Source: Rhodococcus sp. IEGM 1379 (GTDB lineage Bacteria; Actinomycetota; Actinomycetes; Mycobacteriales; Mycobacteriaceae). Taken from it: 64,000 nt of DNA. The notes beneath the pieces are model-generated. The model was given only the letters and a program-made list of their open reading frames with translations. It made no database searches and was not told where the DNA came from. Position 1 is the first letter of the stretch. Each line of letters starts with the position of its first letter. Position numbers and translations under genes: made by a program. Shown here piece by piece: positions 7,406 to 54,828 of the stretch. The DNA lies in NCBI RefSeq assembly GCF_030056815.1, contig NZ_JASHKR010000005.1, forward strand, positions 62,001 through 126,000, in the 5' to 3' direction.

Positions 7406-7424
7406 TTAGGTAACACTAACTTTG
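7406..7424 (+). promoter_or_regulatory. Weak IdeR/DtxR-like iron box
   Basis: TTAGGTAACACTAACTTTG matches 13 of 19 positions of the DtxR/IdeR consensus TTAGGTTAGGCTAACCTAA, with both half-site cores (TTAGGT and CTAAC) kept. It lies directly upstream of, and touches, the ribosome site of a siderophore-interacting protein gene, a common IdeR target. Confidence 0.5.
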
Positions 7425-45990: not shown

Positions 45991-47931
45991 GTGCGTGTAG
46001 AAGATGATCAGGCGGCGGTGGCGGGTTTTCCGTTCAGTGCTGTTGTAGGCCAGGACCAATTGCGGCTGGCGTTGATCCTGTGTGCGGTGCACCCGGGAAT
46101 CGGCGGTGTGCTGGTTCGCGGCGAAAAGGGTACGGCCAAATCCACGGTGGTGCGCGCTTTGACGGCGCTGCTGCCGGCTGTCGACGACGCCGGTGTCAGC
46201 CGTCCCGCGCGACTGGTGGAACTTCCCGTCGGTGCGACGGAAGATCGCGTGATCGGCTCGATCGACCTCGAGAAGGTTCTTCGTGACGGTGAACGCGCTT
46301 TCCAGCCCGGTTTGCTGGCCGCAGCCCATCAGGGCGTTCTGTACGTCGACGAAGTTAACCTTCTTCACGATCATCTGGTGGACGTTCTCCTCGACGCCGC
46401 AGCAATGGGCCGGGTGCACATCGAACGTGACGGAATCTCGCACTCACATGCGGCGAAGTTCGTTCTCGTGGGAACCATGAATCCCGAAGAGGGAGAACTG
46501 CGTCCACAGTTGTTGGATCGTTTCGGTCTCGCAGTGGATGTGGCAGCATCCCGGGATGTGGACGTGCGCATGGAGGTTGTACGCCGCAGGCTCGACTACG
46601 AACGCGACCCGCAGGCTTTTGCGGCCCGCTACGCGCCGGCCGATCAGGACCTGGCGGCCGAAATTCTCGCGGCACGTGGGCAATTGGATTCCGTGGAGTT
46701 GAGTAACCGTGAGCTGCGCAGAATTGCGTCGCTCTGCGCATCTTTCGACGTCGACGGTATGCGGGCCGATCTGGTTCTCGCTCGCACCGCCACCGCTCAC
46801 GCCGCGTGGCGTGGGGATACCGAGGTGACCGAAGAAGATGTGCGGATTGCCGCGGAATTGACTCTGCCGCACCGTCGTCGACGTGACCCTTTCGACGAGC
46901 CGGGTCTTGATCAGCAGCAACTCGACGAAGCGATGCAGCAGGCAGACGATGATGCGCGCGCCGGTGAGCCTGAGCCGCCCGAGAATCCGGAACCCGGCAC
47001 TGAGTCTGACGACACCGGCCCTGATGATTCTGGTCCCGACGATTCCGGCCCAACAGACGACGGACCGGATGACGAGGGTCCCGATGACGATGGCCCCGGC
47101 GGGGGAGTGCGTGCGACCGAACGACCTTCAGCTCCGCCGAGTAGCCAGTTCGCCACCAAACTCCTCGAAGTTCCCGGTGTGGGCGAAGGTGCGCCCGGAC
47201 GCCGTTCGCGCTCCCTGTCTTCGCGTGGACGGGTCGTGCGGCCTACCTCCGATCGCGGTCACGGACTGCATCTGACAAGCACGGTATTTGCGGCTGCAGA
47301 ATCCCAGGTTGCGCGGGGCCGCACTGCGGGACGGCTTCGGCTGGCGCCGACGGATCTGCGGGGTGCGATTCGTGAAGGGCGAGAAGGCAATCTGATCGTG
47401 TTTGTTGTCGACGCATCGGGTTCGATGTCGGCGCGTGATCGTCTGTCTGCCGTCACGGGTGCGGTAGTTTCTCTCCTTCGTGACGCGTACCAGCGCCGCG
47501 ACAAGGTTGCCGTGATTACGGTGCGCGGGCGCGAGGCAGACATCGTTCTGCCGCCGACGTCGTCGGTGGACATCGCTGTTCGCCGGCTGCAATCCATGCG
47601 CACGGGCGGTAAATCGCCACTGGCAGAAGGTTTCCTGCGGGCGCGGGAAGTTGTTCTGCGTGAACGGCTTCGGGACCCGCAGCGCCGGGCATTGGTAGTC
47701 GCACTTACCGACGGCCGCGCTACCGGCGGCAAGGACGCACTGCACCGTGCCAGGGTCGCTGCGCATCTGTTGGCCGACGCGTCGGTCTCCTCGATTATGG
47801 TCGATTGCGAAACCGGGCTTGTCCGTTTGGGATTGGCCGCCGAGTTGGCCCGAGAACTGCGCGGCGGATGCGTCCGCCTCACCGAATTGTCAGCGCAGCA
47901 GGTCGCGGGCGTCGTCCGCGCCGCAGCCTAA
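45991..47931 (+). CDS. Fused ChlI-ChlD-type metal chelatase subunit (putative cobaltochelatase)
   Basis: 646 residues from GTG 45991, with GGAGGG 8 bases upstream. The AAA+ ChlI-like domain has Walker [10 protein letters not shown] (44-52) and Walker [11 protein letters not shown]. An acidic Asp/Gly/Pro linker of near-repeats ([19 protein letters not shown]) follows around 350-370. The C-terminal VWA domain shows the MIDAS DASGSMS near 474. It is the I-D ATPase/integrin-type component that drives metal insertion with a large CobN/ChlH-type subunit not present in this window. Under riboswitch control and in front of cobO and cobB, so cobalt is the likely metal. Confidence 0.92.
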
Positions 47932-47953
47932 CGTCTTTCCCCAGGAGATCACC

Positions 47954-48568
47954 ATGCCCAAGGGCATTCCCGAATCAGTTCCCGACGACGGCTTGACCAC
48001 ACGTCAGCGTCGTAACGCACCGGTGCTTGCGGTCCACACCGGACCGGGCAAAGGCAAGTCCACCGCAGCGTTCGGTATGGCGCTGCGCGCTTGGAACCAA
48101 GGTTTCGACGTCGGCGTCTTCCAGTTCGTGAAGAGCGCGAAGTGGAAGGTCGGCGAGGAAGCAGCGTTCCGCGCGCTCGGAAACCTGTACGACGAGACGG
48201 GCGTCGGCGGCCCGGTGCAGTGGCACAAGATGGGCGAAGGCTGGTCGTGGACCCGAAAGGCGGGTAGCGAAGAAGATCACGCCAGCGCGGCTGCCGAGGG
48301 GTGGCAGGAGATTGCCCGACGCCTCGCTAACGAGGAACATCGCTTCTACGTGCTCGACGAGTTCACCTACCCCCTCAAATGGGGATGGGTCGACGTCGAC
48401 GAGGTTGTGCAGACGCTGCGTGACCGACCGGGCAATCAGCACGTTGTCATCACCGGACGCGATGCGCCACAGGCGTTGATCGACGCGGCTGATCTGGTGA
48501 CCGAAATGACCAAGATCAAGCACCCGATGGACGCGGGCCGGAAGGGTCAGCGGGGCATCGAATGGTGA
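47954..48568 (+). CDS. cobO: Cob(I)yrinic acid a,c-diamide adenosyltransferase
   Basis: 204 residues from ATG 47954, with AGGAG 6 bases upstream. The CobA/BtuR-type P-loop HTGPGKGKST is at 29-37. FQFVKSAKWKVGE, HKMGEGWSW, and YVLDEFTYPLKWGWVDVDEV identify the corrinoid adenosyltransferase. The product is the substrate of CobQ at 31856. Overlaps cobB by 7 bases. Confidence 0.96.
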   Translation: MPKGIPESVPDDGLTTRQRRNAPVLAVHTGPGKGKSTAAFGMALRAWNQGFDVGVFQFVKSAKWKVGEEAAFRALGNLYDETGVGGPVQWHKMGEGWSWTRKAGSEEDHASAAAEGWQEIARRLANEEHRFYVLDEFTYPLKWGWVDVDEVVQTLRDRPGNQHVVITGRDAPQALIDAADLVTEMTKIKHPMDAGRKGQRGIEW

Positions 48569-49938
48569 GTGCGTCTACGCCGGCTGTGGTGATCGCCGCA
48601 CCCGCATCGGGGAGCGGCAAGACCACGGTGGCCACGGGATTGATCGGTGCGCTTCGTAGTTCGGGTAGCAGCGTCGCGCCGTTCAAAGTGGGGCCCGACT
48701 ATATCGACCCTGGTTATCACGGACTGGCCGCGGGACGGCCGGGACGCAATCTCGACACCGTGCTGGTCGGGATGGACCGCATCGGTCCGCTCTACAATCA
48801 CGGCACCGCCGGCTGCGATATCGCAGTCGTCGAAGGTGTCATGGGTCTGTTCGACGGCAAGATCGACGAGGCCAACGCGCAGGCATCGGCGGAGGGGTCG
48901 ACGGCCCAGGTTGCGGCAATTCTCGGTGCGCCGGTTGTCCTGGTCATCGACGCGCGTGGACACAGTCAGAGTTTGGCTGCCGTGCTGCACGGCTTCGCGA
49001 CCTACGACGCGAGTGTGCGCATCGGGGGAGTGATTCTCAACCGCGTCGGCAGCGCCCGTCATGAGCAGGTGTTGCGACACGCGTGCGACAAGGTGGGAAT
49101 CCCCGTCCTCGGTGTCGTTCCGCGGTTGGTGGAGTTGGAAGTACCTTCGCGGCACCTGGGCTTGATTCCGGCTGCGGAGCACGGCATTGCGGCCGTTGCC
49201 GCGGTGGAGGCGATGGCGGAGTTGATCGCGACTCATACCGATCTCGGCGCGATCCGTGCTCTGGCGTCGTCGACTGTCACTGCGCCCGCGTGGGATCCGG
49301 TAGCGGAAGTGGGGATCCATCACGATTCACGACCAGTGGTCGCCATAGCCGGCGGGCCCGCCTTCACCTTCGGATACGCGGAGCACCGTGAACTTCTGGT
49401 CGCGGCGGGCGCGGACGTACAGGTCTTCGATCCACTCACGGGCGAATTACCCTCCGGTACTGCGGCATTGGTGCTCCCTGGCGGATTCCCCGAAGAACAT
49501 GCCGTCGACCTGGCATCCAATACTGTTTTGCTCGCGCAGGTTCGAGACCTCGCCGACGGCGGTGCCCCCATTCATGCCGAGTGCGCCGGACTTCTCTACC
49601 TGGCCCGCAGTCTCGACGGACACGAGATGGCCGGTGTTATCGGCGTCGACGCGCAGTTCGGTAAGAAACTGACTCTCGGATACCGAGAAGCTGTGGCGCT
49701 GGGGGATTCGAGTGTGTTCGAGGCCGGGGCCAGGGTTGCGGGGCACGAGTTCCACCGGACGTCCCTGGTGTTCGCCGACGCGGACGGGTGCAACCCGGCG
49801 TGGGGTTGGCGGCCCTGGGACGGCGGCGCGATGCGGGAGGGCTTCGTTCGAGGTGGAGTTCATGCCTCGTATCTGCACACGCACCCTGCCGGTCAGCCGA
49901 GATCGATCACGAAATTTGTCGAGGCAGCCGGTGGGTGA
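48562..49938 (+). CDS. cobB: Cobyrinate/hydrogenobyrinate a,c-diamide synthase
   Basis: 458 residues from ATG 48562 (a GTG one codon later would overlap the cobO stop). The N-terminal P-loop IAAPASGSGKTT is followed by FKVGPDYIDPGYH. The C-terminal glutamine amidotransferase-like domain has PIHAECAGLLYL (nucleophile Cys) and AGHEFHRT with a catalytic His. It amidates the a and c acetate side chains of the corrin ring using glutamine and ATP. The late-inserting aerobic pathway is implied by the chelatase next to it. Confidence 0.95.
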   Translation: MVSASTPAVVIAAPASGSGKTTVATGLIGALRSSGSSVAPFKVGPDYIDPGYHGLAAGRPGRNLDTVLVGMDRIGPLYNHGTAGCDIAVVEGVMGLFDGKIDEANAQASAEGSTAQVAAILGAPVVLVIDARGHSQSLAAVLHGFATYDASVRIGGVILNRVGSARHEQVLRHACDKVGIPVLGVVPRLVELEVPSRHLGLIPAAEHGIAAVAAVEAMAELIATHTDLGAIRALASSTVTAPAWDPVAEVGIHHDSRPVVAIAGGPAFTFGYAEHRELLVAAGADVQVFDPLTGELPSGTAALVLPGGFPEEHAVDLASNTVLLAQVRDLADGGAPIHAECAGLLYLARSLDGHEMAGVIGVDAQFGKKLTLGYREAVALGDSSVFEAGARVAGHEFHRTSLVFADADGCNPAWGWRPWDGGAMREGFVRGGVHASYLHTHPAGQPRSITKFVEAAGG

Positions 49939-50335
49939 GGTGTACGTCGGAGTGGGATTCACGCAGTCGGCAACCGTCGTAGACGTAGTGACCGCAATAC
50001 GCGCCGTTGCCCCTGAAGACAATTCGATCGTGGGGCTTGCCACCGTTACGAGTAAGGCAGCGTCATCCGTACTCATCGCCGTCGCCGAGATGCTGTCGAC
50101 GCCGATCATCGCGTTCGGGCCGGAAGCCCTTGCCGCAGTGATCGTTCCGTCGCCGTCCCGAAGAGTCGAGCAGGTTGCAGGTACCCCGAGTGTGGCGGAA
50201 GCCGCTGCAATCCTTGCCGCCGACCACGGCCGATTGATCGTGGGGAAGACTTCCACTGATGCGGTGACGGTTGCCGTGGCCGGTAAAGTTCCACCAGCAT
50301 GCACAACGATGAGAAATGAAATGGAGTGCGAGTGA
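49931..50335 (+). CDS. CobE/CbiG C-terminal domain-like cobalamin biosynthesis protein
   Basis: 134 residues starting at GTG 49931 (overlapping cobB) or GTG 49940. Features are VYVGVGFTQSATVVDVVTAI at the N-terminus, VGLATVTSKAASSVLIAVAE, and a C-terminal SVAEAAAILAADHGRLIVGK with TSTDAVTVAVA. This pattern, a GxG start and SVAEAAAL-type helix, matches the CobE family related to the CbiG C-terminus, whose exact role in ring contraction chemistry is unclear. Sandwiched between cobB and the cysG-type gene with overlaps at both ends. Confidence 0.78.
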   Translation: MGEVYVGVGFTQSATVVDVVTAIRAVAPEDNSIVGLATVTSKAASSVLIAVAEMLSTPIIAFGPEALAAVIVPSPSRRVEQVAGTPSVAEAAAILAADHGRLIVGKTSTDAVTVAVAGKVPPACTTMRNEMECE

Positions 50336-51555
50336 GCGAGCCCACCGCAGATGAGACCAACTACTTGGTCGGACTCAATCTGACCGATCGGCGCGTTGTC
50401 GTGTTCGGCGGCGGGACTGTTGCCCAGCGTCGACTCGGTCTGCTGGTCAGCTCGGGTGCCCGCGTGCACGTCATCAGTCGCGCAGTCACACCGGCTGTGG
50501 AGGGAATGGCAACAGCGGGGCAGATCACACTCGAGCTGCGTCCGTATCGGGACGGGGATCTCGACGGTGCCTGGTATGCGATCGCGTCGACGGATGAGCC
50601 GGAGACCAACGCGGCGATCGTCGCGGAGGCAGAGCGTCGGCGCGTCTTCTGTGTACGCGCGGACAACGCGAAACGCGGCACCGCCGTAACGCCCGCAAGC
50701 GCCGAGTACGACGGCATGAGCATCGGCATCCTGGCCGGCGGCGATCATCGTCGTTCGGCAGCTGTTCGTACCGCTGTGGTCGAGGGGCTGCAATCCGGTC
50801 TCCTCGCAGATACCGCCGAACCGGCTGCGCCCGGTGTAGCACTTGTCGGTGGCGGCCCCGGCGATCCGGACCTGATTACCGTGCGCGGGCGTCGTTTGTT
50901 GGCACGCGCGGATGTTGTTGTTGCGGACCGCTTGGCGCCGCCGGAATTGTTGGCGGAACTCGGTCCCGACGTCGAGGTGATCGATGCGGCGAAGATTCCG
51001 TACGGCCGGGCCATGGCTCAGGAAGCCATCAACGCTGCGCTGATCGACAATGCCAAAGCCGGAAAGTTTGTCGTCCGGCTCAAGGGCGGCGATCCGTACG
51101 TATTCGGTCGTGGATACGAAGAGTTCGAGGCCTGCGCCGCGGCGGGAGTGCCCGTGACTGTGGTGCCGGGAATTACGAGCGCGATTTCCGTACCGTCGGC
51201 TGCGGGTATTCCGGTCACGCATCGCGGCGTCACCCACGAGTTCGTGGTTGTCAGCGGTCACGTTGCTCCGGGCCACCCCGATTCGTTGGTCGACTGGTCT
51301 GCTCTGGCGAAGTTGCGGGGCACGATTGTTCTGCTGATGGCAGTCGAGCGCATCGAATTGTTTGCGGCGGCTCTGATCGAGGGTGGGCGCCCCGCGAGTA
51401 CTCCGGTGATCGTGATCCAGGAAGGTACGTTGCGCACTCAGCGTGAGGTCCGGGCGGACCTGGCGACTGTCGCTGCGCGGGTCAAGGACGAGGAGATCAA
51501 GCCTCCGGCAATTGTTGTGATCGGACCGACCGCGGGATTCTCGCTCGCCGGGTAA
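50332..51555 (+). CDS. cysG: Fused precorrin-2 dehydrogenase and uroporphyrinogen-III C-methyltransferase
   Basis: 407 residues from GTG 50332, which overlaps the previous stop (GTGA). The N-terminal Met8p-like NAD-binding domain shows RRVVVFGGGTVAQRR (21-34). The C-terminal SUMT domain shows ALVGGGPGDPDLITVRGRR, VVRLKGGDPYVFGRG and VPGITSAISVPSAAGIPVTHRG. It turns uroporphyrinogen III into precorrin-2 and possibly sirohydrochlorin, feeding cobalamin and siroheme. The Met8p part is shorter than enteric CysG, as in mycobacterial homologues. Last gene of the operon; a strong terminator follows. Confidence 0.93.
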   Translation: MSEPTADETNYLVGLNLTDRRVVVFGGGTVAQRRLGLLVSSGARVHVISRAVTPAVEGMATAGQITLELRPYRDGDLDGAWYAIASTDEPETNAAIVAEAERRRVFCVRADNAKRGTAVTPASAEYDGMSIGILAGGDHRRSAAVRTAVVEGLQSGLLADTAEPAAPGVALVGGGPGDPDLITVRGRRLLARADVVVADRLAPPELLAELGPDVEVIDAAKIPYGRAMAQEAINAALIDNAKAGKFVVRLKGGDPYVFGRGYEEFEACAAAGVPVTVVPGITSAISVPSAAGIPVTHRGVTHEFVVVSGHVAPGHPDSLVDWSALAKLRGTIVLLMAVERIELFAAALIEGGRPASTPVIVIQEGTLRTQREVRADLATVAARVKDEEIKPPAIVVIGPTAGFSLAG

Positions 51556-51568
51556 CACGTTGCACGTC

Positions 51569-51613
51569 AAAAGGTCTGGCCTTCACTCGGCAAGAGTGAA
51601 GGCCAGACCTTTT
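51569..51613. terminator. Bidirectional terminator, cobalamin operon versus iron-regulated genes
   Basis: Perfect 20-bp stem (51569-51588 with 51594-51613) starting with A4 and ending in T4, between convergent genes. Confidence 0.95.
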
Positions 51614-51630: not shown

Positions 51631-52533
51631 TTAGAGCGCGGCACCGATGAGAGCAGCTGCGACGAGGGGAGCGGTGACCGGAGCCTTGAAGGTCACCGGG
51701 GTCGTGGTGTCCTGGGTGCGGTCAGCCGAGCCGTGTGCTGCGATGGTGTAGAACGAGCAGGTATTGGCGAGGCAGTCCGAAGCGCCCTTGACGGCGAGTA
51801 CATCGACGGTGGTGCTCCACTTGCCGTCAACAATGTTGGCGGCCTTGATCCAGGTGGTGGTCATCCAGGCACCGGCCTCGGTGAGGGAGTACTTGTTGTC
51901 CTGGACCAGGCCGACGTAGATGCCCGATCCTGCGCCGGAGAATCCGGTGCCGGAGACGGTGACGGTTTCACCGGCCGCGGCGATGCCGGTGGCGTTCGAA
52001 ACGGTGACTGTCGGTCCGGTCGGAACAACGACGGGTGCCTTGAAGGTGACGGGGGTCTTGGTGTCCTGGGTGCGGTCTGCCGAGCCGTGTGCTGCGATGG
52101 TGTAGATCGAGCAGGTGTTGACGAGGCAGTCCGAAGCGCCCTTGACGGCGAGTGCATCGACGGTGGCGGTCCACTTACCGTCGACGATGTCGGCGGTCTT
52201 GAGCCACGCGGTGGTCATCCAGGCGGTGGAGTCGGTGGCGGAGTACTTGTTGTCCTGGATGAGTCCGACGTAAAGGCCCGATCCGGCGCCGGAGAACCCG
52301 GTGCCCGAGACGGTGATGGTCTCGCCGGCAGCAGTGAGGTCGGTTGCCTTAGACAGGGTGACCGCCGGTGTGGGGTCTGCGGGCTCTTCAGGTTCGCTAC
52401 CGCCGAGGCTGCCCAGCGAGCCGGTGTTGAGTCCGCCGAACGGCGTGATCTGTGCTCCGGCGACGCCCATCGACATTGTCGCGGCGATTGCGGTGGCTGC
52501 GGTGATGATCGCTACCTTGCTGAATACGCGCAT
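51631..52533 (-). CDS. Iron-regulated exported protein with two AAHGS-type beta-sandwich modules
   Basis: 300 residues. The signal peptide is residues 1-27 (MSMGVAGA-QITP). After a Gly/Ser and acidic spacer come two ~110-residue modules (57-165 and 174-284) with the shared order GETVTVSGTGFSG, G-L/I-YVGL.QDNKYS, AWMTT.W.K, W[ST].TVD.LAVKG, DC..NTC (C136/C141, C254/C259) and YTIAAHGSADRTQD followed by TPVTF. It ends with a short hydrophobic tail APLVAAALIGAAL. The layout recalls neocarzinostatin-like/Ig folds found with HtaA haem proteins. A 16/19 IdeR box lies upstream. Function inferred: metal or haem capture at the surface. Confidence 0.82.
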   Translation of the reverse strand: MRVFSKVAIITAATAIAATMSMGVAGAQITPFGGLNTGSLGSLGGSEPEEPADPTPAVTLSKATDLTAAGETITVSGTGFSGAGSGLYVGLIQDNKYSATDSTAWMTTAWLKTADIVDGKWTATVDALAVKGASDCLVNTCSIYTIAAHGSADRTQDTKTPVTFKAPVVVPTGPTVTVSNATGIAAAGETVTVSGTGFSGAGSGIYVGLVQDNKYSLTEAGAWMTTTWIKAANIVDGKWSTTVDVLAVKGASDCLANTCSFYTIAAHGSADRTQDTTTPVTFKAPVTAPLVAAALIGAAL

Positions 52534-52586
52534 GGTCCTGCTCTCTTGTGTGGGACGCCCTTTTCGGCGGCCTGATTCGAACTAAG

Positions 52587-52605
52587 TTAGGTAAAGCTAG
52601 CCTAA
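52587..52605. promoter_or_regulatory. IdeR/DtxR iron box
   Basis: TTAGGTAAAGCTAGCCTAA agrees with the consensus TTAGGTTAGGCTAACCTAA at 16 of 19 positions and is nearly palindromic. It lies 54 bases upstream of the minus-strand start at 52533, where a repressor would cover the promoter. Confidence 0.87.
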
Positions 52606-52735
52606 TTTATGGACGTTTGTCTAGTTGCCATCCACCTTGTGGGACAACAGAATTCGCGTCGAGTCTGCACATGTGGGCAGCGCTGAACGCCGGCCCCGAT
52701 TCAGGGAATCCGTTGTCATGCCTGTAATGGTTTTG

Positions 52736-52770
52736 CCGGTCGGATGGCTCGCGTCGAGCCATCCGACCGG
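52736..52770. terminator. Perfect 15-bp hairpin downstream of the four-module gene
   Basis: Arms 52736-52750 and 52756-52770 with a 5-nt loop, 16 bases past the stop of the minus-strand gene. No T-run on that strand, so a stem-only terminator or RNA-stabilising hairpin. Confidence 0.7.
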
Positions 52771-52786
52771 TGAGAGAAACCTGGTT

Positions 52787-54727
52787 CTAGGTTCGGCGGC
52801 GGAGCGCGAAGGCCGTTGCTATCGCACTTCCTGCCCCGATGAGGCTGCCGACCACCAGCGGCGCGATCCAGCCGTAGCCTCCCGAAAACGAGTCGGCGAG
52901 GTTGCGGATCGCTGCGTTCGAATCTCCCGGAGCTCCGGCAGCCACTGCGTCGGCCTCCGACGGGTTGTCGCCGAAGCTCACCGGCGTCTTGGTGTCCTGG
53001 CTGCGGTCACTCGAGCCATGCGCGGCAACGGTGTAGATCGAGCACGTGTTCTTGGTGCAGTCGGAGTCGCCCTTGACGGCCATGATTTTCATGGTGGTGG
53101 ACCACGCGCCGTTGGTGATCTTGCTGGGGAGGATGAAAGCGGTGGTCATCCAGGCGCCGGCGTCGGTGGTGGAGTACTTATCGTCCTGGATGAGACCGAC
53201 GTAGATGCCCGGCTGCGCACCGGAGAATCCGGTGCCCGAGATGGTGATCTCTTCGCCCTCGATCTTGATGCCGCTCGACTTGGACAGGGTCACGGCCCCG
53301 GTATTTGCAGCGCCGCTGTTGGCGGCGCCGTTACTGGCGGGGGGCGCGGTGACTGTGCCCGGTGCGACGCCGCCGACGAAGCCCACCGGCGTGCGGCTGT
53401 CCTGGCTGCGGTCACTCGAGCCGTGGGCGGCGACGGTATAGATCGAGCACGTGTTCTTGATGCAGTCGTAATTTCCTTGAACGGCAGCAAGTTCCATGGT
53501 GGTGGACCAGTTGCCGCCGGAGATCGACTCCGGCTTGAGGAAGGCCGTTGTCATCCAGACCGAGGCGTCGGTCGCGCTGAACACGTTGTCCTGAACCATT
53601 CCGACATAGAGGCCCGGCGATGCGCCGGAGAAACCGGAGCCGGAAATGGTGACGGTTTCACCGGAAGGCGTGATGTCGGTGGACTTCGAAAGTGTCACTG
53701 ACAGAGCACTGTTGGTCGCTATCGCGCCCGCACCAGTCCCGGTACCCGTCCCGGCACCTGTGCCGGTTCCTGTTCCGGTGCCTGTGGTTGCACCGGGCGC
53801 CGGGGTTCCGACGAAACTGATGGGGGTGGAGGTGTCCTGGCTGCGGTCGCTCGAACCGTGTGCTGCGAGGGTGTAAATGGCGCAGGCGTTGGCCTGGCAG
53901 TCGCTACCGGCGAAAATCGACGACACGTTGAGTGACGTCGACCAGGAACCGCCGGGCATATCCGTGGGCTTGATGAACTTCGCGTCCTGGAACACTGAAG
54001 CGTCGGTGTTCGAGTACCGGTTCGACTGCGCGATACCGATGTAGATACCCGTTCCCGAGGTCGAGAATCCGCTACCGCTGATGCTGATCGTGTCGCCCGC
54101 CGCGTTCAGCCCGCTGGTTCGGTCAGCGCTCACGCTCGGTCCGCCGGTCGGCGTCGTCGGTTTCTTGGTGGTGGTGATGACCGGAACATCGATGGTCGGT
54201 TCCGGATCTTCGGTGGTGGTCGGCGGCTTGGTGGTGGTTGTCGTTGTTGTTGTCGGTGCAGCTGCGAAGGTCACCGTTGTCTGGGTGTCCTGGCTGCGAT
54301 CGCTCGAGCCGTGTGCCGCGACGGTGTAGATCGAGCAGGAGTTCTTGGTGCAGTCCGAGGCGCCCGCAATGCCCACGACGTCAACTGATGTCGACCACTC
54401 GCCGCCGATGATCTGGGTGGGGCGGATGAACGCAGTGGTCATCCAGGCGCTGGCGTCCGTGGCAGAGAACTTGTTGTCCTGGACCAGGCCGACGTAGATT
54501 CCGGGCTCGCTGCCGGAGAATCCGGTGCCCGAGACGGTGATGGTTTCACCGCTGACCTTCAGCCTCGACGTCTTGGAGACCGTCGTATCCGGAGTGCCCG
54601 AGATGGATTTGGAGGCCGGGGCGCTGTCACCTGAAGTTTCGGGGGCGGCGACGGCGACGCTCACCGATGTCGTCAACGCCACGGCTACGGCCATAGTCGC
54701 GAAAGCAGCCCTGCTTAACGCTCGCAT
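52787..54727 (-). CDS. Iron-regulated membrane-anchored protein with four AAHGS-type modules
   Basis: 646 residues from ATG 54727, with AAGGAAAG just upstream. Signal peptide 1-28 (SVAVA-APET). Four modules at about 47-156, 197-306, 343-450 and 477-586, each with SGTGFSG, G-x-YVG, W/F-x-T/D-A[FK], one DC.. x C pair and [YF]T.AAHGSSDRSQD. Linkers are Thr-rich (157-196), Gly/Thr repeat (309-337) and Ala/Gly/Asn (451-476). A C-terminal helix (619-641) with trailing RRR anchors it with modules outside. Module 2 departs (QSNRYSN, VFQDAKF). Two IdeR boxes precede it. A paralogue of the neighbour; probably the surface-anchored partner. Confidence 0.85.
   Translation of the reverse strand: MRALSRAAFATMAVAVALTTSVSVAVAAPETSGDSAPASKSISGTPDTTVSKTSRLKVSGETITVSGTGFSGSEPGIYVGLVQDNKFSATDASAWMTTAFIRPTQIIGGEWSTSVDVVGIAGASDCTKNSCSIYTVAAHGSSDRSQDTQTTVTFAAAPTTTTTTTTKPPTTTEDPEPTIDVPVITTTKKPTTPTGGPSVSADRTSGLNAAGDTISISGSGFSTSGTGIYIGIAQSNRYSNTDASVFQDAKFIKPTDMPGGSWSTSLNVSSIFAGSDCQANACAIYTLAAHGSSDRSQDTSTPISFVGTPAPGATTGTGTGTGTGAGTGTGTGAGAIATNSALSVTLSKSTDITPSGETVTISGSGFSGASPGLYVGMVQDNVFSATDASVWMTTAFLKPESISGGNWSTTMELAAVQGNYDCIKNTCSIYTVAAHGSSDRSQDSRTPVGFVGGVAPGTVTAPPASNGAANSGAANTGAVTLSKSSGIKIEGEEITISGTGFSGAQPGIYVGLIQDDKYSTTDAGAWMTTAFILPSKITNGAWSTTMKIMAVKGDSDCTKNTCSIYTVAAHGSSDRSQDTKTPVSFGDNPSEADAVAAGAPGDSNAAIRNLADSFSGGYGWIAPLVVGSLIGAGSAIATAFALRRRT
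53739..53786 (-). repeat. Four 12-bp tandem units encoding a Thr/Gly linker
   Basis: Units of the form CCGG-x-x-CC-x-G-T-x at 53739, 53751, 53763 and 53775, each giving four residues of a TG(T/A)G linker between modules 2 and 3. Such units can expand or contract by slippage, changing module spacing without frameshift. Confidence 0.8.
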
Positions 54728-54789
54728 CTTTCTTCTTTCCTTCTGGCGACAATCGCAGTCACAGCGCGATCCGTCGAACACACACTCGA

Positions 54790-54808
54790 GTAAGTTAGCC
54801 TAAGCTAG
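54790..54808 (-). promoter_or_regulatory. IdeR/DtxR iron box, proximal or distal copy 1
   Basis: On the minus strand CTAGCTTAGGCTAACTTAC matches 15 of 19 consensus positions, including the central TTAGGCTAAC. It lies about 63 bases upstream of the ATG at 54727. Confidence 0.82.
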
Positions 54809-54809
54809 C

Positions 54810-54828
54810 AGAGGCCAGCCTAAGCTAC
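54810..54828 (-). promoter_or_regulatory. Second IdeR/DtxR-like box in tandem
   Basis: On the minus strand GTAGCTTAGGCTGGCCTCT matches 13 of 19 positions and shares the TAGCTTAGGCT half with the first copy. The spacing (20 bases start to start, close to two helical turns) would put two repressor dimers on the same face. From here to 55114 I see no gene. Confidence 0.65.

Follow-up and report, generated by a model that had tools for sequence, protein, structure and literature searches.

An iron-boxed gene pair of Rhodococcus sp. IEGM 1379 encodes putative HtaA-free surface haem-capture proteins built from a repeated neocarzinostatin-type module

The DNA analysed here is a 64,000-nucleotide stretch of Rhodococcus sp. 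IEGM 1379 (assembly GCF_030056815.1, contig NZ_JASHKR010000005.1, positions 62,001 to 126,000 of the forward strand), hereafter the window. Our subject is a pair of adjacent minus-strand genes within it, gene 1 (51631-52533, product P0001) and gene 2 (52787-54727, product P0002), which both encode exported proteins made of one repeated module, named here after its AAHGS motif. On comparative evidence we consider it rather probable that the two are iron-repressed haem-capture proteins of the cell surface, which work with the AAHGS module only and without HtaA. Upon iron shortage IdeR would leave the boxes upstream of both genes and allow their expression; P0001, with two modules, would be exported and released or loosely held, while P0002, with four, would be retained by its C-terminal helix. 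The modules, with His96 as candidate residue, would then catch haem, or a haem-carrying protein, and bring the cargo to the binding protein HmuT, after which HmuUV would import the haem and HmuO would open its ring. A surface metal or haem capture and relay system had already been proposed in a first-pass annotation of this DNA; of that proposal, the iron boxes, the HtaA-linked and neocarzinostatin kinship and the lack of HtaA have held, and we infer the remainder.

Both genes contain the modules that the first-pass annotation had counted. The six copies form a gapless alignment of 115 columns, 31 of them invariant, and share 42-78% pairwise identity. On the minus strand, those of P0001 occupy 52030-52374 (residues 54-168) and 51676-52020 (residues 172-286), and modules 1 to 4 of P0002 occupy 54254-54598 (residues 44-158), 53801-54145 (residues 195-309), 53366-53710 (residues 340-454) and 52961-53305 (residues 475-589). 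Each has one His and two Cys, and the motifs AAHGS.DR.QD and DC-x4-C recur in all six. Two further motifs once described as invariant, YVGL/YVGM and WMTT, are present in five of the six only: module 2 of P0002, the most divergent copy (42-52% identity to the others), has YIGI and VFQD at those places. P0001 (300 residues) ends in a 14-residue hydrophobic tail with no residues beyond it and no RRR anchor, and is probably exported and either released or loosely held. P0002 (646 residues) has Thr/Pro- and Gly/Thr-rich linkers and closes with a hydrophobic stretch (52802-52858, residues 624-642) followed by RRR (52793-52801). Both N-termini are hydrophobic and signal-like, and the export signals, the weak tail of P0001 and the helix-plus-RRR anchor of P0002 described earlier can all be recognized in the termini. 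For P0002 we used the ATG at 54727 in place of the GTG at 54781 picked by the open reading frame caller, because a AAGGAAAGAAGAAAG stretch immediately precedes that ATG. Neither a Pfam search nor reading of the two sequences revealed a domain beyond modules, linkers and anchor.

A scan of named genomes yielded 35 module loci, from Rhodococcus, Prescottella, Tomitella, Gordonia, Corynebacterium, Leifsonia and Actinomadura, as well as from one member of the Microthrixaceae and one unclassified actinomycete assembly. The closest, in Rhodococcus sp. ARC_M6, is 97% identical over one module. Together with the window these 36 loci, Leifsonia and Actinomadura among them, allowed the upstream regions to be compared. 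Boxes were scored out of 19 against a 19-base IdeR/DtxR consensus. As the first-pass annotation had claimed, each gene of the pair has a box of its own. That of gene 1 (52587-52605, 53 bases upstream of the ATG) scores 17/19 and is the best in the 64 kb, whereas that of gene 2 (54790-54808, 62 bases upstream of ATG 54727) scores 15/19, the joint second-best, and is accompanied by weaker overlapping 13/19 matches at 54805-54823 and 54810-54828. The window holds three sites of at least 15/19 in all, the two gene boxes and one at 7406, against 0.15 expected in a simulated window with similar dinucleotide composition (20 simulations), and with a stricter pattern (at most one mismatch) the site at 52587 is unique in the 6.1-Mb genome. 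Conservation of the boxes across genera is stronger evidence than these window scores: a box of at least 14/19 precedes 46 of 54 module genes versus 16 of 349 other genes at the same loci (Fisher test, 2e-38, which overstates independence since the sequences are related), with upstream scores of 16-17 in Leifsonia and of 17 and 19 in Actinomadura. We therefore infer, from sequence comparison, that the pair is iron-repressed via IdeR.

The link to haem uptake comes from the wider family. The first-pass annotation had stated that similar modules accompany HtaA haem proteins, and fusions now agree with it: the module shares one open frame with HtaA (PF04213) in four Leifsonia genomes (called by Pfam at locus L060, 155 bits) and in genome G074 (L012, 145 bits). 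When the window genome's HmuO, HmuT, HmuU and HmuV were used as queries against the fetched flanks of the named loci, hmu genes were found at 8 of the 35, namely hmuT, hmuU and hmuV at L049, L053, L060-L063 and L066, and hmuO at L064. This is the unselected count; 25 loci examined for their hmu neighbourhood had been selected as being near hmuO or of interest. At L049 and L053, from the Corynebacterium kroppenstedtii group, multi-module AAHGS proteins adjoin hmuVUT, their best modules scoring 156 and 155 bits. A profile search of 151 genomes matched the module in 32, and in 10 of these (G030, G040, G044, G074, G097, G099, G142, G150, G155 and G160) the match lies at most 5 kb from a haem oxygenase gene, where about 0.3 genomes would be expected by chance even within 10 kb. 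Haem oxygenase is also commoner in module-bearing genomes (23/32) than in the others (47/119), a comparison that ignores kinship. At L093-L096 and L098, hmuO and the module gene diverge, with a 16/19 box at their junction, and no box was found at L100-L104, a small and selected contrast for box and His96 counts picked as module matches away from hmuO. On this comparative evidence, haem acquisition would be the leading role. In G074 we also observed a haem locus (L079, 7615-11264) with a fusion of HtaA, module and a WxL-like part beside a WxL-interacting protein, and, with frames read from stop to stop, a second module protein adjoining hmuT.

An inner haem path is encoded in the window genome itself. 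Genes for HmuO, a binding protein, a FecCD-type permease and an ABC ATPase form one run (L085, 5563-9261), and a 14/19 box, the sole site of at least 14 in those 19 kb, stands 35 bases upstream of hmuO. The binding protein lies outside the NCBIfam haem equivalogs (IsdE match at 43 bits versus a cut-off of 299); we call it HmuT because it adjoins the haem oxygenase. The earlier statement that the pair lacks an HtaA domain can be widened, as PF04213 is absent from P0001 and P0002 (Pfam, up to E 1) and from the whole genome. HtaA and the module do occur together in G048, G148 and G160, which belong to other genera of the same taxonomic family. Replacement of HtaA by the pair within the genus was considered and is not significant, with HtaA in 0 of 3 module-bearing versus 11 of 25 other same-genus genomes (p 0.26).

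No curated family name exists for the module in Pfam or NCBIfam, and NCBIfam and PHROGs were uninformative for the pair. The best Pfam match of both proteins is TIG (PF01833, cut-off 20.9 bits); P0001 falls below the cut-off at 18.5 bits, and P0002 reaches 27.2 bits, yet its best stretch is a mere 23 residues long. No NEAT match was found in Pfam, and a PDB sequence search with P0001 alone returned no match. A kinship with neocarzinostatin, which the first-pass annotation had proposed to check by profile search, was reached through relatives of the pair, whereas the window proteins themselves match neither PF00960 nor the NCBIfam chromoprotein model. The relatives concerned carry a sister form of the module, with which the module arrays of Gordonia, Corynebacterium and some Rhodococcus proteins begin, and Pfam called PF00960 in all five sister-bearing proteins tested (L049, L047, L058, L042 and L052). 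A profile of 12 sister modules matched neocarzinostatin at 3.4e-10, and a wide profile of 65 modules, sister modules included, matched neocarzinostatin at 6.7e-5 and ThiX at 4.6e-5 among PDB sequences. By profile alignment, window and sister modules match with a probability of 98.3. The profile of the six window modules alone falls short of neocarzinostatin, with apokedarcidin at E 0.29; its matches to cyclodextrin glycosyltransferase domains (0.015 or weaker) were dismissed as generic.

Structure prediction covered both forms of the module. Module 4 of P0002 was modelled confidently, with seven strands (pLDDT 94.5), and Foldseek returned SKICH and antibody-like immunoglobulin (Ig) folds at a query TM of 0.38-0.56, which we do not count as kinship, with no neocarzinostatin among the 50 matches listed. 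The sister module (pLDDT 90.8) in turn had neocarzinostatin family members as its first 14 Foldseek matches. Because sister modules reach neocarzinostatin by profile and by fold, and align with the window modules, we file the module in the neocarzinostatin-type Ig-like superfamily, to which by these comparisons it belongs, outside PF00960 itself.

Residue conservation was counted over 157 modules, drawn from the window and the named loci, and it separates the two kinds of residue that had been put forward jointly as structural or ligand candidates. Both Cys are kept in 150 modules and absent from 7, and their joint loss is visible in the Leifsonia rows. As both vanish together in modules lacking them, the pair most likely forms a structural disulfide. 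His96 (module numbering), in a loop that is among the best-conserved stretches of the module, is kept in 139 modules and is the better candidate for a ligand. Across 190 modules, distant kin included, at least one module with His96 is present at all 28 window-type loci (those without hmu genes and mostly box-bearing), at 17 of 18 hmu-linked loci and at none of five loci that lack both a box and hmu genes. The lone hmu-linked exception, L097, is shortened in the alignment and on reading by eye has Tyr at that place; L102, gapped there, was likewise read by eye. Tyr35 is nearly universal (155 of 157 modules). In the model it opens strand 34-40, and His96 comes after strand 88-94; in an Ig sandwich these two strands are expected to lie side by side, and Tyr35 perhaps joins His96 as a candidate haem ligand.

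Among known systems, the nearest in function would be HtaA and ChtA of Corynebacterium diphtheriae. The pair resembles them in its predicted iron/DtxR-type control, in coming in exported and anchored forms, in repeating domains within one protein and in a beta-sandwich. Their CR domains bind haem by a tyrosine in helix alpha1 (PMC12494546). A downstream HmuTUV and HmuO are likewise common to both systems, and some relatives have the module fused to HtaA. Another paper reports that htaA, hmuTUV and hmuO of Corynebacterium are controlled by iron and DtxR (PMC13001254), and a third describes a Dietzia HtaA (DtHtaA), encoded near hmuTUV, that becomes enriched on mycomembrane vesicles when iron is limiting (PMC8027190); the window pair would work alike. 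It is nonetheless not a member of the HtaA/CR family, the CR domain (PF04213) being absent from the pair and from the genome.

Similarities to the neocarzinostatin/macromomycin apoprotein family (PF00960) are the superfamily and the shared D-C-x4-C; the window modules differ in being tandem and anchored, in having one Cys pair only, in their iron boxes and in the missing PF00960 match. ThiX, a subunit of the Corynebacterium glutamicum bcc-aa3 supercomplex (PDB 7qhm chain M), resembles the module in that it matches the wide profile, with both Cys and the His at the equivalent places, but is a single-domain lipoprotein; it is described as a supernumerary subunit with an unresolved soluble domain and without known activity (PMC8795186). 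ThiX-like single-module proteins also occur near hmuTUV (L049, 13208-13846; L053, 12646-13284) or transcribed apart from hmuO (L093-L097), and a ThiX-like match without a box and distant from hmuO was seen in the Corynebacterium-like G154 (L105). Such neighbourhoods are hinting that ThiX itself may sit in a haem-linked family. The NEAT/Isd haem proteins of Bacillota, in which repeated Ig-like modules make up secreted and anchored iron-controlled proteins, offer a comparison of working principle only, the window pair differing in phylum and in sequence.

Several observations weigh against haem capture by the pair. Neither the window nor 27 of the 35 named loci (L032-L048, L050-L052, L054-L059 and L065) has an hmu gene in the flank that was fetched, and the pair itself is surrounded by cobalamin genes, by yaaA and by the genes of an MFS transporter and prolyl-tRNA synthetase. 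HmuO matches are absent from G059, a multi-module carrier, and from 8 of the 12 genomes with modules that fall outside the same taxonomic family. The hmuO-adjacent relatives of five genomes (L093-L097) are single-module, distant (33-44 bits) and ThiX-like, and L097 has no box of at least 14/19. Eight of the 54 module genes lack such a box, three of them scoring 13/19 (L048, L051 and L058) and five scoring 10-11, including three fragments of the split copy at L041 and the hmuO-adjacent L064 (11/19). A looser genome-wide pattern (at most three mismatches) found 8 sites versus 9 in the reversed control, so a lone box match is weak evidence at that scale. Lastly, His96 is replaced in 18 of the 157 modules, chiefly by Phe (13) in sister modules.

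Some of these points would suit other roles. The module may be a protein-protein adaptor that does not bind haem, with haemoglobin, HmuT or the cell wall as its counterpart, or else a stalk, and be iron-controlled through its partners. We regard this as unlikely, although Ig-like repeats often serve in placing other domains, the Leifsonia protein at L060 combines the module with a true HtaA and with four Ig-like stretches of the Big_3_5 type, and both the His96 losses and the generic Ig-like folds that alone were matched by the window module would fit it. However, a pure stalk would here have no load, with no other domain in the pair and no HtaA in the genome, and the conservation of the His-bearing loop also speaks against it. 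Capture of a different iron source or tetrapyrrole, for example a corrinoid or a ferric siderophore, has in our view a small chance of being correct. Iron boxes are compatible with any iron source, proteins of the neocarzinostatin type are carriers of small molecules (the PDB titles matched include ligand complexes), and cobalamin-type genes (chelatase/CobO/CobB/tetrapyrrole methylase, 45991-51552) lie close by, preceded by a plus-strand adenosylcobalamin (AdoCbl) riboswitch (RF01482, 45825-45981, 50.9 bits, cut-off 50). Yet that riboswitch fronts the plus-strand cobalamin genes and not the pair, and a cobalamin role suggested by the neighbours was set aside; in several lineages, moreover, the wider family has ties to hmuO, hmuTUV and HtaA. 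A smaller chance still attaches to cargo-free envelope proteins of iron starvation, structural or signalling, with the hmu linkage belonging to distant cousins that do another job. The loci without hmu genes would agree with this, as would the likeness of the small hmuO-adjacent relatives to ThiX, which serves a respiratory supercomplex as an accessory subunit (PMC8795186), but the multi-module AAHGS proteins that adjoin hmuVUT at L049 and L053 argue against it.

Surface haem capture, if true, would explain how haem outside the cell is accessed by a Rhodococcus that lacks HtaA yet has HmuO and an HmuTUV-like transporter, and would mean that actinobacteria own a haem-acquisition domain without a Pfam or NCBIfam name. 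The neocarzinostatin fold, a carrier of small aromatic drugs, would gain a wider role in small-molecule capture, and the role of ThiX in the respiratory supercomplex would become testable. A broader proposal is that the AAHGS module constitutes a third haem-capture domain of Gram-positive bacteria after CR/HtaA and NEAT, a neocarzinostatin-type Ig domain binding haem via His96 (Tyr in one relative), distributed across Mycobacteriales, Leifsonia, Actinomadura and Microthrixaceae and HtaA-independent in rhodococci such as this one; we put this forward as a possibility, with more doubt than belief. We found no prior description of neocarzinostatin-like domains linked to haem in a literature search whose coverage left out most subscription journals, the work retrieved on neocarzinostatin-like domains concerning sortase-dependent proteins, and, in the literature on iron-regulated Rhodococcus surface proteins, no title or abstract opening among those listed concerned the pair.

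The sequence downstream of each gene also deserves mention. A perfect 20-bp hairpin with TTTT at its end, resembling an intrinsic terminator, follows gene 1 (51569-51613, minus strand), and a perfect 15-bp inverted repeat without a T run follows gene 2 (52736-52770, minus strand), both read directly. Given such a repeat behind each, genes 1 and 2 are probably transcribed separately. A plasmid search gave no match. Among the closer relatives (L032-L045), P0002 has four modules in all 13 unsplit copies, the window counted, while P0001 counterparts have one to three modules in frame, with the helix and RRR end present or not. At L041 (7848-11505, Prescottella defluvii SampleD3_15) the pair is broken across several frames, by decay or assembly error. 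A third four-module, box-preceded protein with a sister-form first module stands beside the pair or replaces it at L039, L042, L046 and L082, loci of Rhodococcus and of one further genome; of these, L042 is the one checked for PF00960. Frequent neighbours of the 36 module loci, named by likeness to window genes, are of the prolyl-tRNA synthetase type (14/36) and the yaaA type (11/36).

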